64,000 bases of DNA, taken from positions 1-64,000 of the forward strand of contig NZ_BJZU01000034.1 of the NCBI RefSeq assembly GCF_007992195.1, given 5' to 3'. The notes beneath the pieces are model-generated. The model ran no database searches. It was not told the DNA's origin and saw nothing but the letters and a program-made list of their open reading frames with translations. This document shows positions 39,331-49,277 of the stretch, in pieces (the first letter of the stretch is position 1; each line of letters opens with the position of its first letter). The translations under genes and the position numbers were made by a program. This stretch comes from Methylobacterium oxalidis (lineage in GTDB: Bacteria > Pseudomonadota > Alphaproteobacteria > Rhizobiales > Beijerinckiaceae).

Positions 39331-40437
39331 ATGAGAATCCTGACGGCCCTGCTCGTCGCTATCTTGGCCTCTGCCCCGGCGCTGGCGCAGGCGCCGTTGA
39401 AGATCGGGCTGTCCGCGCCGCTGACCGGGCCGGACGCAGCCTTCGGCCAGGGCCTGCGGCTCGGCGCGGAGCAGGCGGTGGCCGACCTCAACCGGAGCGG
39501 CGGGCGCAAGATCGCTCTCGTCGTGGCGGACGATGCCGGCGACCCGAAGCAGGCCGTGGCGATCGCCCGGAAGTTCGCGGCCGAGGGCGTGAGCCTCGCG
39601 ATCGGTCCGTTCGCATCCTCGGTGGCGGCGCTGGCGCTCCCGGCCTACGAGGAGGCCGGCATCGTGATGGTGGCGCCCGGCGCCACCTGGTCGCCGCTCA
39701 GCGCGCGCGGCGCCTGGAACCTCTTCCGTCTCGCGCCGAGCGACGCGCAGCAGGCGGCCTTCGCGGGCGCCTACATCGCGGAGCGATATGGGACGCGCCG
39801 CATCGGCATCGTGCACGACCGCACGACGTTCGGCCGCGGCCTCGCAGACGAGGTGTCGCGCACGCTGAAGGCGCGGGGCCGCCGCGAGGTGCTGTTCGAG
39901 AGCCTCGTCCGCGGCTCGAAGGACGCCTCGGACCTCGCCGCGCGGCTGAAGCGGGCGGCGGTGGAGGTCGTCTACTTCGGCGGCCTCGCGCCCGAGGCGG
40001 CACTCCTGATCAATGCGATGCGAGAAGCGGGTCTCGACGCGCCCATGGTCGGCAGCGACGGCATCCTCGACAAGGATTTCGCGCCGGCCGCCGGCCCCGG
40101 CGCCGAGGGCACGGTGATGACGATGGAGCCCGAGCCGCGCCGGCTGCCGGAGGTGCGGGGCGCCAAGACGATCCCGCGCACGCCGGAGGCCGATGCCGTT
40201 GCGGCACGGTCCTATGCGGCGGTGGAGCTTCTCGCGCAGGGCGCTGCGCGGGCGCGATCGACCCAAGGGACGAAAGTCGCGGCCGCCCTGCGCGAGGGCG
40301 GCCCGATCCGCACCCTCGTTGGCGACCTCAGCTTCGATCAGGCCGGCGACACGCGCTATCCCGACCTCGTCCTGCGGACGTGGCGGCGCACGGCGGACGG
40401 GCGGATCGACTATCTGGGAAGCGAGAACGGTCCCTGA
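39331..40437 (+). CDS. Periplasmic substrate-binding protein of a branched-chain amino-acid-type ABC transporter
   Basis: A 368-residue protein with a clear signal peptide (MRILTALLVAILASAPALAQ, cleavage near residue 19). The mature part is a type I binding fold: LKIGLSAPLTGPDAAFGQGL, then VVADDAGDPKQAVAIARKF and RRIGIVHDRTTFGRGLADEV, as in LivJ/UrtA-like proteins. No permease or ATPase gene is adjacent, so it is an orphan binding protein or serves a transporter encoded elsewhere. Ligand unknown. Confidence 0.87.
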   Translation: MRILTALLVAILASAPALAQAPLKIGLSAPLTGPDAAFGQGLRLGAEQAVADLNRSGGRKIALVVADDAGDPKQAVAIARKFAAEGVSLAIGPFASSVAALALPAYEEAGIVMVAPGATWSPLSARGAWNLFRLAPSDAQQAAFAGAYIAERYGTRRIGIVHDRTTFGRGLADEVSRTLKARGRREVLFESLVRGSKDASDLAARLKRAAVEVVYFGGLAPEAALLINAMREAGLDAPMVGSDGILDKDFAPAAGPGAEGTVMTMEPEPRRLPEVRGAKTIPRTPEADAVAARSYAAVELLAQGAARARSTQGTKVAAALREGGPIRTLVGDLSFDQAGDTRYPDLVLRTWRRTADGRIDYLGSENGP

Positions 40438-40637
40438 ACCCGCTTTCCTGTCGATGGGCGGGCGTGTGCGGGCGGGCGCGCTTGCGTCGGCCTCGCGCCG
40501 ACACTACATGCGTCCTACGCTTGACGGCTTCGCGCATCCGACGGGATCGGACCCGCCGCCCCGGCGTTTTGCTGATTGGCCGGTGATATTGGTCCCGGGT
40601 CCCCGCGATCGCCGGGCGATCCGGCTGGAGAGGATGG

Positions 40638-43261: not shown

Positions 43262-43276
43262 GAACATAGCACGAAC
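43262..43276 (-). promoter_or_regulatory. LexA (SOS) box upstream of parC
   Basis: Minus strand GTTCGTGCTATGTTC: a perfect match to the alphaproteobacterial LexA consensus GTTC-N7-GTTC. It sits in the 49-bp space between the recO stop and the parC start, 31 bp before the ATG, where a bound repressor would block transcription. The match is seen directly; regulation is inferred from the known consensus. Confidence 0.6.
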
Positions 43277-45313: not shown

Positions 45314-48300
45314 TCAGTTCACCTCCACCTGCACCACGCCCGGCACCGCCCGCAGCGCGCCCGCGACCTGCGGACTCGCCTGGTACTTGCCCGGCAGCTT
45401 CACCTCGACCTCGCGCTCGCCGCCGTCGAGGATGAGGATCAGGGAGACCTCGCCCTCGCCGCGAAGCGACAGGCGCTGCTGGACCGAGCCGATCGGGCGC
45501 TCGTCGCGCAGGTAGATCCGCATGCCCTTCTGGTAGCGGGCGACCGCCTGGTCCAGGGGCTCGGCGGTCTGGATGCGGGCGCGCACGTCCTCGCCCTCCA
45601 GGTTCGCTTGAAGCTGGAGCACCAGCGGCCGGCCGGGCTCCAGGATGTCGCGGTAGTGGCCGAGCCCCTCGGAGAAGATGATCGCCTCGAAGTGACCGGT
45701 CTGGTCCGAGAGGGTGACGATGCCGAGCTTGTTGCCGGTCTTGGTGCGCCGCTCCGAGCGGTCGAGCACCGAGGCCGCCACCCGCCCGACGCTGGTCGAC
45801 CCGGCCCGCACGGCGCGGCAGAACTCGGCCCAGGTCTGGACGCGCAGCTTCTCCAGAAGATGCCCGTACTCGTCGAGGGGGTGCCCGGACAGGAAGAAGC
45901 CGACCGCGTCGTACTCCTTCTTCAGCTTCTCGGCCATCGGCCAGGGGTCGTGCGGCGGGATGCGCAGGGAGACGTCGGCCGACGCGACGCCGCCGAACAT
46001 GTCGACGATGCCGGTCGTCTCGGCCTCGGCCGCCCCCTGCGCCAGCTTCATCATGGGCTCGACCGCCGCGAAGGCGCGCGACCGGTCCGGCTCGATGCAG
46101 TCGAGGGCACCCGCGGCGATCAGGTTCTCCAGCGTCCGCTTGTTGACGTGGCGCGGGTTGAGGCGGCGCGCGAGGCAGGCGAGATCCTTGAACGGCCGCG
46201 TGCCGCGCGCCTCGACGATCGCCTCGACCGCGGCCCGGCCGACGCCCTTGATGGCGGCCAGCGCGTAGCGGATGCGCCCGTCATGCACCTCGAAGACGAC
46301 GCCGGACGCGTTGATCGAGGGCGGCTCCACCACGATCTTCAGGCGCTGGGCGTCCTGGCGGAATTCCGCGAGCTTGTCGGTGTTGTCGATGTCGAGCGTC
46401 ATCGCCGCGGCGAGGAACTCGACCGGATGGTTCGCCTTCAGGTAGGCGGTCTGGTAGGTCAGCAGCGCGTAGGCCGCCGCGTGGCTCTTGTTGAAGCCGT
46501 AATCGGCGAACTTCGCCAGCAGGTCGAAGATCTCGTCGGCCTTCGCCTTGGTCAGACCCCGCTCCACCGAGCCCTTCACGAAGCGGTCGCGCTGGGCGTC
46601 CATCTCCGCCTTGATCTTCTTGCCCATGGCCCGGCGCAGGAGGTCGGCGTCGCCCAGCGAGTAGCCGGCCAGCACCTTGGCCACCTCCATCACCTGCTCC
46701 TGGTAGACGATGATGCCGAAGGTCTCCTTCAGAATCGGCTCCAGCTTCGGGTGAGGGTACCAGCTCGCCTCGTTGCCGGCGTCGCGCCCGAGCTTGCGCT
46801 CGCAGTAGACGGGAATGTTGGCCATCGGGCCCGGCCGGTAGAGGGCCACCAGCGCGATGATGTCCTCGAAACGGTCGGCCTGCATCTCGCACAGCGCCTT
46901 GCGCATGCCCGCCGATTCCACCTGGAACACGCCGACCGTCTCGCCGCGCTTCATCGGCTCGTAGGTCTTCTCGTCGTCGAGGGGCAGGCTGGCGAGGTCG
47001 ACCTCGATGCCGCGCTGCTTCAGGAGGTCCGTGCAGCAGCGCAGCATGGTCAGGGTCTTGAGACCGAGGAAGTCGAACTTCACGAGCCCCGCCTGCTCGA
47101 CCCACTTCATGTTGAACTGGGTCACCCGCATGCCCGTCTTCGGGTCGCGGTAGAGCGGTACCAGCTGCTCGAGCGGCCGGTCACCGATCACGACGCCCGC
47201 CGCGTGGGTCGAGGCGTGGCGGTGGAGCCCTTCGAGCTTCCTGGCGATCTCCATGAGGCGCGCGACGATCGGCTCCTCCTCGATCGCGCTCTGCAGCTTC
47301 GGCTCGCCCTCGATGGCCTGGGCCAGCGTCACGGGGTTGGCCGGGTTCTGCGGCACGAGCTTCGTCAGCTTGTCGACCTGCCCGTAGGGCATCTCCAGCA
47401 CGCGGCCGACGTCGCGCAGCACGCCGCGGGCCAGCAAGGTGCCGAAGGTGATGATCTGTGCCACCTGCGCGTGCCCGTAGCGCTCCTGCACGTACTGGAT
47501 GACGCGCTCGCGGCCCTCGACGCAGAAGTCGATGTCGAAATCCGGCATCGAGACGCGCTCCGGGTTGAGGAAGCGCTCGAACAGCAGGCCGAAGCGGAGC
47601 GGGTCGAGATCGGTGATCAGGAGCGACCACGCGACGAGCGAGCCGGCGCCCGAGCCGCGGCCCGGCCCGACCGGGATGTCGTGGTCCTTCGCCCACTTGA
47701 TGAAGTCGGAGACGATGAGGAAGTAGCCCGGGAACTTCATCTTGACGATGACGTCGAGCTCGAAGGCGAGGCGCTCGCGGTAGACGTCCTCCGCGATCCC
47801 CGGCGCGGTGCCGTGCTGCTTCAGCCGCAGCTCCAGCCCCTCCTCGGCCTGTCGGCGGAGTTCCGCCGGCTCGTCGAGGGCGATCACCTCGGCCACGGCG
47901 TTGGCGGCGTCCGCCCGCGCCTCGGCCTTCTCGGCGAGGGCCGCTTCCCTTGCGGGATCCGTGCCGGAACCCTTGCACGCGTCCCCGGCGGCGACGCTGC
48001 CGAAATTCGGCAGGATCGGCTTGCGGGTCCGCACCCGGTAGGCGCAGCGCATGGCGATCTCGACGGTCGCCGAGAGGGCCTCCGGCAGGTCGCGGAACAG
48101 GTCCGCCATCTCGGCGCGGGTCTTGAAAGCGTGGCGCGGGGTGAGCCGCCGGCGGCGCTCGTCCGAGACGAGGCGGCCCTCCGCGATGGCCAGCAGCGCG
48201 TCGTGTGCGTCGTAATCGTCGGGTTTCCCGAAGAAGGGCTCGTTGGCCGCGGCCACCGCCAGCCCGTGGCGGTCGGCGAGGCGCAGGAGTTCACGCTCGA

Positions 48301-48874
48301 CCCGGCGCTCCTCGTCGAGGCCGTGGCGCTGAAGCTCGACGTAGAGCCGGTCCTCGCCGAAAGCGTCCAGGAGCCGGGCGAGCCTCGCGCCCGCGAGTTC
48401 CGGCCGGCCGGCCCGCAGGGCCGCGTCGAGCGGCCCGGTCGGGCCGCCCGTCAGCGCGATCAGCCCCTCCGCGGCGTCGACGAGGGCGTCGGCCGCGACG
48501 CGCGGCGCCTCGCCCAGCGGCCCGTCGAAGTAGGCGCGGCTCGCGAGGCGCAGCAGGTTGCCGTAGCCGACCTCGTCCTGGGCCAGGATGACGATGTTGC
48601 AGGCCGGCACGCTCAGGCGCGCCAGCGGATCGTGCGCCTCGAAGGTGACGGAGAGCTGCATGCCGGCGATCGGCTGGATCCCGGAGCCCGCGGCCTTCTC
48701 GGAGAATTCCAGCGCGCCGAACAGGTTGTTCGTGTCGGTCAGCGCCAGCGCGGGCTGCCGGTCGGCGACGGCGGCCTTGACGAGGTCGGCGACCTTGAAG
48801 GCGCCCTCGAGCAGGGAAAAGGACGAGTGAACGTGGAGGTGGACGAATCCGACCTCCTTGAGCTGGCGCGCCAT
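45314..48874 (-). CDS. dnaE: DNA polymerase III alpha subunit (replicative, DnaE1 type)
   Basis: A 1186-residue C-family polymerase. The N-terminal PHP domain begins FVHLHVHSSFSLLEGAF; the palm has the catalytic aspartates in SMPDFDIDFCVEG (around residue 445); a clamp-binding motif related to QADMFG reads IVDMFGG (around 955); and an OB-fold follows near the C-terminus. Length and PHP sequence fit the replicative enzyme and not the shorter, SOS-induced DnaE2. Nevertheless a perfect LexA box lies 178 bp upstream, between this gene and a small SOS-type gene. The replicative role is established for the family; damage control of this copy is inference. Confidence 0.96.
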   Translation of the reverse strand: MARQLKEVGFVHLHVHSSFSLLEGAFKVADLVKAAVADRQPALALTDTNNLFGALEFSEKAAGSGIQPIAGMQLSVTFEAHDPLARLSVPACNIVILAQDEVGYGNLLRLASRAYFDGPLGEAPRVAADALVDAAEGLIALTGGPTGPLDAALRAGRPELAGARLARLLDAFGEDRLYVELQRHGLDEERRVERELLRLADRHGLAVAAANEPFFGKPDDYDAHDALLAIAEGRLVSDERRRRLTPRHAFKTRAEMADLFRDLPEALSATVEIAMRCAYRVRTRKPILPNFGSVAAGDACKGSGTDPAREAALAEKAEARADAANAVAEVIALDEPAELRRQAEEGLELRLKQHGTAPGIAEDVYRERLAFELDVIVKMKFPGYFLIVSDFIKWAKDHDIPVGPGRGSGAGSLVAWSLLITDLDPLRFGLLFERFLNPERVSMPDFDIDFCVEGRERVIQYVQERYGHAQVAQIITFGTLLARGVLRDVGRVLEMPYGQVDKLTKLVPQNPANPVTLAQAIEGEPKLQSAIEEEPIVARLMEIARKLEGLHRHASTHAAGVVIGDRPLEQLVPLYRDPKTGMRVTQFNMKWVEQAGLVKFDFLGLKTLTMLRCCTDLLKQRGIEVDLASLPLDDEKTYEPMKRGETVGVFQVESAGMRKALCEMQADRFEDIIALVALYRPGPMANIPVYCERKLGRDAGNEASWYPHPKLEPILKETFGIIVYQEQVMEVAKVLAGYSLGDADLLRRAMGKKIKAEMDAQRDRFVKGSVERGLTKAKADEIFDLLAKFADYGFNKSHAAAYALLTYQTAYLKANHPVEFLAAAMTLDIDNTDKLAEFRQDAQRLKIVVEPPSINASGVVFEVHDGRIRYALAAIKGVGRAAVEAIVEARGTRPFKDLACLARRLNPRHVNKRTLENLIAAGALDCIEPDRSRAFAAVEPMMKLAQGAAEAETTGIVDMFGGVASADVSLRIPPHDPWPMAEKLKKEYDAVGFFLSGHPLDEYGHLLEKLRVQTWAEFCRAVRAGSTSVGRVAASVLDRSERRTKTGNKLGIVTLSDQTGHFEAIIFSEGLGHYRDILEPGRPLVLQLQANLEGEDVRARIQTAEPLDQAVARYQKGMRIYLRDERPIGSVQQRLSLRGEGEVSLILILDGGEREVEVKLPGKYQASPQVAGALRAVPGVVQVEVN

Positions 48875-49051
48875 GACCGACCTTGTTCGTGGTCGGCCAG
48901 GATTCCGGCTCAGCCTTAAGGTGTCATCCGCAAAGACGGGGCTGTCCGCAGATGTCCACCGCCATGTGCCCTCCGGGCATCACAGGCGCCCCTGAGGCGC
49001 GCGAAACCGCACGCTGCGCGCGCTTTCCTGTGGGCGACGCCCGTAAACCGG

Positions 49052-49066
49052 GAACTTTTCGCGAAC
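49052..49066 (-). promoter_or_regulatory. LexA (SOS) box between the 38-residue gene and dnaE
   Basis: Minus strand GTTCGCGAAAAGTTC is a perfect GTTC-N7-GTTC match. It starts 13 bp after the stop of the 38-residue gene and 178 bp before the dnaE start. It could control a dnaE promoter or act with the other box to repress both genes. Consensus match is direct; function is inferred. Confidence 0.5.
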
Positions 49067-49078
49067 AGGAGGACACCC

Positions 49079-49195
49079 TTAATGCAGGGGCGCCAAGGCT
49101 ACGGCCCAGAGCGCGACCGCACTCGACAGGAGCCCGAAGGCCGTGAACTCGATGAACCCCGTGAGGATGTTCCGCTTGATCCCGTCCGCTCTCAT
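49079..49195 (-). CDS. Small membrane protein, 38 residues, behind a LexA box (SidA-like candidate)
   Basis: The frame begins at ATG 49195 with a good ribosome-binding site (GGAGG, 5 bp before the start). It encodes a basic start (MRADGIKRNILTGF) followed by one hydrophobic helix (GLLSSAVALWAVALAPL). A perfect LexA box lies 30-44 bp upstream and overlaps a plausible promoter spacer. In Caulobacter the SOS-induced inhibitor SidA is a 29-residue single-helix inner-membrane protein that blocks division. Length, topology and operator match that pattern, though sequence homology cannot be claimed. Codon use is normal. Existence is well supported; the role is inferred. Confidence 0.65.
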   Translation of the reverse strand: MRADGIKRNILTGFIEFTAFGLLSSAVALWAVALAPLH

Positions 49196-49224
49196 CTCGG
49201 CCTCCATCTGATGGGTACAGTTTT

Positions 49225-49239
49225 GTTCCTGTTTTGTTC
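49225..49239 (-). promoter_or_regulatory. LexA (SOS) box of the 38-residue gene
   Basis: Plus strand GTTCCTGTTTTGTTC, a perfect GTTC-N7-GTTC. On the minus strand it lies between a possible -35 (TTTACA, 49247-49242) and an AT-rich -10 region near 49224-49219, the classic position for a LexA operator. The surrounding 40 bp are unusually AT-rich for this genome. Confidence 0.65.
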
Positions 49240-49277
49240 TATGTAAAGCGAGGACGGCGGGCTAGGCCGCGACGTGG

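Follow-up and report, generated by a model that had tools for sequence, protein, structure and literature searches.

A small gene with a LexA operator upstream of dnaE in Methylobacterium and related bacteria encodes a single-helix membrane peptide, a candidate SidA-like brake on cell division

Our analysis of a 64,000-nucleotide (nt) stretch of the Methylobacterium oxalidis genome (contig NZ_BJZU01000034.1; here referred to as the window) points to a 38-codon gene upstream of dnaE that is, with near certainty, controlled by LexA and encodes a real membrane peptide. We consider it likely, with a probability of about two in three, that this peptide acts like SidA to hold back cell division once DNA has been damaged, in which case division would be inhibited and FtsW would be the presumable target.

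Results

The small gene and its upstream signals

The initial annotation of this DNA had described a 38-codon frame with a GGAGG site and an exact GTTC-N7-GTTC box located upstream in a promoter. Our reading of the window confirmed both of them: the frame runs on the minus strand from an ATG at 49195-49193 to a stop codon at 49081-49079, and the box lies between a −35-like and a −10-like hexamer. The features of the locus are as follows, from upstream to downstream.

49242..49247, minus strand: −35-like hexamer TTTACA, read from sequence
49225..49239, minus strand: LexA operator GAACAAAACAGGAAC, a GAAC-N7-GAAC direct repeat (GTTC-N7-GTTC on the plus strand), assigned by exact pattern match and conservation
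49219..49224, minus strand: putative −10-like hexamer AAAACT, read from sequence
49201..49205, minus strand: ribosome-binding site GGAGG, 5 bases 5′ of the ATG of the small gene
49079..49195, minus strand: small gene of 38 codons encoding a single-helix membrane protein, MRADGIKRNILTGFIEFTAFGLLSSAVALWAVALAPLH, assigned by open reading frame and conservation in the genus
45314..48874, minus strand: downstream neighbor, which we take from its N-terminal sequence to be dnaE (DNA polymerase III alpha); its ATG lies 204 bases past the stop codon of the small gene

The spacer between the two hexamers is 17 bases long and consists almost wholly of the operator; a LexA operator within the promoter, as in genes of the SidA type, is predicted at 49225-49239 at the level of sequence. 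The box pattern alone is weak evidence, as it is only mildly rare: four matches to GTTC-N7-GTTC were found in the window compared with a shuffle mean of 0.76, and 3 of 100 shuffles reached four. The case for the operator therefore rests on its conservation. In the whole genome, the repeat occurs 141 times and the reversed control pattern 66 times, which means that many single boxes in the genome occur by chance. Two of the other matches in the window are located at 40425-40439 and 43262-43276, both on the minus strand. The remaining one, at 49052-49066 (minus strand), is a second exact box, situated past the small gene and ahead of dnaE; among the 59 genus loci it recurs at an equal offset only in L002, the nearest relative, the boxes of L042 and L049 being offset differently, and it was therefore rejected as a conserved element and is probably a chance or clade-specific occurrence.

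Each of the 59 genus genomes has the repeat before the small gene, with its first base 44 to 62 nt 5′ of the chosen start codon. In the alignment of these operators, the eight GAAC/GAAC bases are invariant, most of the spacer bases are nearly so, and the flanks are variable; a TTKAC, TTTCC or CTATC sequence is found 8 or 9 bases 5′ of the operator in 47 of the 59 genomes. The recA operator of M. oxalidis itself, GAACAAAACAGGTAC, shares 14 of 15 bases with the small-gene operator (18 of 21 over a longer stretch), and lexA of the same genome is preceded by a LexA-type box, GAACACTTGCGGAAC. An operator of the GTTC-N7-GTTC type, the mark of the alphaproteobacterial LexA regulon, is thus common to the small gene, recA and lexA. 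Another box, GTTCCCGTTATGTTC, precedes a radA-like gene, presumably RadA to judge from its translation (locus L092; contig C50, 21403-21417). The same LexA consensus, GTTCN7GTTC, also appears in the available text of a published study (PMC12700426). Kept in 59 of 59 genomes and nearly identical to the operator of recA, the box strongly supports the LexA control suggested by the initial annotation, and LexA would be expected to bind it in vivo.

Conservation of the small protein within the genus

A protein search covering 99 genomes, 59 of them from the genus (M. oxalidis included), matched the small protein in all 59 genus genomes at E values of 1.7 × 10−4 or lower and gave only weak matches (E > 0.5) in the others. 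A separate scan of named contigs yielded 44 loci, 43 of them from Methylobacterium or Methylorubrum and one from a Beijerinckiaceae metagenome-assembled genome. The conserved core comprises 34 residues and was found in nearly all of the 59 genus loci, while the first four residues of the 38-residue protein are present only in M. oxalidis and L002.

The mean entropy at codon positions 1, 2 and 3 of the small gene is 0.72, 0.42 and 1.10, respectively, and the median dN/dS ratio is 0.33 (922 of 1,536 pairs, restricted to dS between 0.1 and 1; 56 of the 59 sequences, with L044, L053 and L059 dropped for length), a figure that is rough, as dS is high in many pairs. Judged from the alignment, this pattern is that of purifying selection on the protein. 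Frame +2 was likewise free of stop codons in all 56 sequences tested, and the openness of the small frame was therefore not used as evidence. Both the frame and its box are conserved before dnaE in relatives, which excludes the lack of conservation that would have spoken against the original proposal. In L059, the small protein carries a short repeat where the helix begins (MVELMIELMAF).

The small gene and its operator are separable from dnaE

The small gene lies on the strand of dnaE and 98 to 232 bases before it in 54 of the 59 genus loci, and the two genes may share a transcript. Such an arrangement would suit a leader peptide or an upstream open reading frame controlling dnaE, the operator then serving dnaE, and C. 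crescentus dnaE was itself listed as SOS regulated in the available part of a comparative paper (PMC3323433). We nevertheless regard this explanation as very improbable. In four genomes of the genus (L016, L017, L019 and L020), no dnaE follows the small gene and a convergent gene is found in its place, yet both the frame and the operator are intact; a fifth locus without dnaE, L041, ends at the end of its contig. In G008, the one of the four genomes with the moved gene in which dnaE was read, dnaE is located 1.36 Mb from the small gene and no operator was found in the 850 bases before it. Moreover, the amino acid conservation follows a membrane-helix pattern. A leader peptide of dnaE was rejected on the grounds that in one clade the gene and operator are found side by side at a site apart from dnaE. 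The operator thus appears to go with the small gene and not with dnaE, a conclusion for which G008 is the single case, and its traveling with the small gene bears on the older statement that Caulobacter dnaE is SOS regulated.

Distribution beyond the genus

A profile built from the genus proteins (A1) recovered short frames from further genera, both in the family and in the order, counted here as Hyphomicrobiales, to which Methylobacterium belongs. A widened profile (A2) reached further families and, at E values of 0.02 or lower, had matches in 57 of 397 order genomes, chance matches included. Inspection of the DNA at the A1 and A2 matches showed that the same repeat precedes most of those with a short frame. 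Numerous profile matches, among them L115, L116, L124-L128, L130-L134, L200 and L202-L204, were dismissed as chance, as they had long frames, no operator or no dnaE; L412, L413, L416, L417 and L423 were dismissed on the same grounds, and L409 was ambiguous.

Because dnaE follows in many of the profile matches, we also searched by position before dnaE. A query with the N-terminal part of DnaE matched every one of the 110 order genomes searched, and 850 bases before dnaE were read in 89 of them (29 from loci and 60 fetched; M. oxalidis was excluded and 20 genomes were unread in this count). The rule demanded a repeat of the form GAAC-N7-GWAC or GTAC-N7-GAAC, a start codon 8 to 74 bases further on, and a frame of 25 to 60 codons with a hydrophobic stretch and its end before dnaE. 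An operator followed by a helix gene was found in 46 of the 89 genomes, compared with a mean of 0.0 in twenty rounds of dinucleotide shuffling, and the repeat alone in 51, compared with a shuffle mean of 2.1. It should be noted that the rule was written after the profile matches were known; 9 of the 89 genomes were profile matches, 7 of them positive, and 39 of the 80 others were fresh positives that the profile had not found. The positive genomes span 22 of 38 families and encode one-helix proteins of 28 to 38 residues; two of the 46, L319 and L354 of family f22, have odd frames that may represent another protein, and in 31 of the 46 loci TTGAC occurs at most 22 bases 5′ of the repeat. The 43 other genomes revealed no such gene before dnaE by the rules used, and the count of 46 is on the low side, as some copies lie outside the 850 bases or have moved (G314 and G008).

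In the class as a whole, DnaE was matched in 140 of 144 genomes searched, and the DNA upstream of dnaE was read in 70 (the 30 best matches and 40 chosen among the larger genomes), of which 68 were counted as other orders after M. oxalidis and one genome of the same family had been left out. A repeat with a helix frame preceded dnaE in nine of the 68 (G747, G708, G668, G794, G636, G769, G631, G749 and G742), the frame of G631, which fell below the hydrophobicity rule, being found by eye; by these rules, no gene of this kind was found in the other 59 loci. A third profile, A3, among whose members are proteins of G708, G794, G742 and G769 or G636, had matches at E values of 0.05 or lower in 27 of 255 class genomes. 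Reading the DNA at these matches revealed the repeat, the frame and dnaE in G630, G863, G822, G914, G890 and G717, as well as the repeat and the frame with no dnaE seen in G867; the remaining matches were rejected as chance.

A predicted single helix with a conserved face

From the single sequence, AlphaFold2 predicted one helix spanning residues 2-34 (mean pLDDT of 93.3, pTM of 0.52). With 38 residues, a core of 34 and this one predicted helix, the protein is similar in build to SidA, for which about 29 residues and one membrane helix are typical. That the frame encodes a real one-helix membrane protein, as had been proposed, is strongly supported by its conservation in 59 of 59 genomes, the dN/dS ratio of 0.33 and the predicted helix.

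We counted conservation along the helix in 69 of 85 rows anchored on a tryptophan residue that is nearly invariant in the family; members without Trp, families f41 and f51, and the L364 protein were excluded. Apart from Trp itself, conservation peaks at position −17 relative to it (Asp/Glu in 46 of 69 rows) and at −7 (Phe in 53 of 69), with further peaks at −14 (Ala or Glu) and −11 (Ser or Ala). The strongest period of conservation is helical, at 100 to 105 degrees (permutation P value of 0.018 without Trp), and the conserved face of the 38-residue protein comprises Glu16, Leu23 and Trp30. While the Methylobacterium branch carries Glu at −14 and many others carry Asp/Glu at −17, L219, L220 and L316 have both the acidic residue at −17 and Glu at −14 and thereby link the two forms.

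That a solitary helix keeps one face conserved suggests that it has a partner within the membrane. The face does not tell which partner this is, and transporters or proteases are the targets of many one-helix modulators in bacteria; the peptide could accordingly be an SOS-induced modulator of a membrane complex other than the divisome, such as the protease FtsH or a respiratory or transport complex. We consider this unlikely, since the place, operator and size of the small gene are, as far as can be judged, those of SidA, whose target is known.

The same helix face bears on another explanation. LexA control, small size and a single helix equally fit TisB and DinQ of Escherichia coli, LexA-controlled one-helix peptides that belong to the type I toxins and are characterized by long leaders and an antisense RNA. 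A peptide of this kind would insert into the membrane and lower its potential, leading to dormancy rather than to a specific block of division. However, the promoter read from the sequence would leave about 16 to 20 bases between the expected transcription start and the ATG, which would give no room for an antisense-controlled leader such as those of tisB and dinQ. Furthermore, the helix keeps a specific face with its nearly invariant Trp, and the small gene is a fixed chromosomal neighbor of dnaE in many families, which type I toxins are not known to be. A toxin of the TisB or DinQ kind thus appears improbable, and the short predicted leader and the tie to dnaE set the small gene apart from both.

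Relation to SidA and other known proteins

The window protein had no family match. Pfam gave no match for 44 genus proteins, NCBIfam gave for the same number only podovir_small (two proteins, at 0.36), PHROG gave none for 45 members, and no solved structure matched. A mobile origin was rejected, as a tblastn search of plasmids and phages with the 38-residue query returned no match, a weak null for a sequence this short and hydrophobic. Matches of single members of the wide alignments were scattered and judged to be chance, with the exception of the SidA model. Our search of the open-access literature found the gene reported nowhere outside Caulobacter.

The SidA model, NCBIfam NF033228, is an equivalog of 29 positions with a curated cutoff of 35 bits. 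We scanned 124 distinct family proteins (44 from A1, 45 from A3, three of these shared with A1, then 2 and 4 more, and 32 from A4), and none reached the cutoff. The best match, and the only one to touch the model, was the L320 protein (family f36), whose residues 1-22 aligned with positions 1-21 at 13.2 bits (E value of 0.067 for 18,950 models); the window's own protein did not match. Such a match is unlikely to arise by chance for one model named beforehand. Since comparable or weaker scores were also obtained with five unrelated models (four matched once each and one by two proteins), we count it as support and not as proof. As the cutoff was not reached, we did not file the small protein as SidA.

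According to the available text of the sources, SidA is a 29-residue inner-membrane inhibitor that binds and acts on FtsW (PMC4211646), and lexA mutants lacking SidA cease to filament (PMC12700426). The gene is CCNA_02004 (PMC10769358), Caulobacter dnaE and recN are CC1926 and CC1983, respectively (PMC1839093), and recN is also CCNA_02062 (PMC12700426). Equating the two designations of recN places dnaE near CCNA_02002-02005, with sidA within about two genes of it, by arithmetic rather than by map. Caulobacter sidA therefore appears to occupy the same place before dnaE as the small gene; this position is seen directly for the small-gene family and is deduced for Caulobacter from the locus numbers and the older regulon listing.

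SidA of C. crescentus thus resembles the small protein in being LexA controlled, about 30 residues long, equipped with one membrane helix and, by locus numbers, encoded beside dnaE. The small protein is five (core) to nine residues longer than SidA, with Glu at Trp −14 in the window protein and Asp/Glu at Trp −17 in many relatives. The claim of the initial annotation that the frame is a functional counterpart of SidA was hence borne out in part: it is supported by what is apparently the same place, by an operator of the same type, by comparable size and by the weak colinear match of one relative to the SidA model, whereas the SidA cutoff was reached by none of the 124 proteins. Most likely, the small protein acts in the manner of SidA, to which it may be orthologous, the likeness being judged from the model and locus numbers and not from the sequence of SidA itself.

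DidA of Caulobacter, also described in the available text of PMC4211646, is likewise a small membrane protein with one helix that inhibits division in response to damage, but it has 71 residues, acts on FtsN and is induced by DriD instead of LexA. YneA of Bacillus, SosA of Staphylococcus and ChiZ of Mycobacterium, which belong to other phyla, are damage-induced membrane inhibitors that act late in division, with an action on FtsW predicted or shown; a LysM domain is present in ChiZ and an extended helix in SosA, as given in the available part of PMC13396833.

Discussion

We propose that LexA, bound to the operator between the −35 and −10 elements, would block the promoter of the small gene. 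Upon DNA damage, RecA filaments would trigger the self-cleavage of LexA, and the derepressed promoter would yield an mRNA with a short leader from which the 38-residue peptide is made. The peptide would insert into the inner membrane as one helix, its Lys-Arg end most likely in the cytoplasm, and the conserved face would dock on a membrane protein partner, the likeliest being the septal peptidoglycan complex around FtsW, FtsI and FtsN. Constriction would then wait until the damage is repaired, as with SidA in Caulobacter.

Beyond the single locus, we lean toward the view that the SidA-like SOS checkpoint peptide is an old alphaproteobacterial gene, placed before dnaE since before the orders split and missed at about 32 codons, and that the operator credited to dnaE belongs to the peptide gene. 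In that case, a membrane division brake that position alone can reveal is hidden in many lineages of the order, and regulon lists naming dnaE as SOS controlled would probably need correction. How division is held after DNA damage is understood in few species outside the SulA type, and the small gene supplies a candidate that can be put to the test across much of an order: an operator with a small frame before dnaE provides a way to find further members, and the conserved helix-face motif provides a basis for mutagenesis.

Several further observations concern the DNA around the small gene. The spacer before dnaE (48875-49078) contains conserved blocks, including a GTGGATATC-like one (14 loci aligned; L028, L034, L043, L044 and L059), and several relatives carry TTATGCACA or TTTTGCACA and TTGTCCACA or TTATCCACA; we take these blocks to resemble DnaA boxes. 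In genus g72 (L104-L111 and L113), two tandem LexA-like repeats, 21 bases apart, precede the small gene. In 7 of the 46 positive order loci (L310, L312, L335 and L356 among them), GANTC, the methylation site of CcrM, lies within about 22 bases 5′ of the LexA operator, and in four of the seven the site reads TTGACTC and thus falls over the −35 element.
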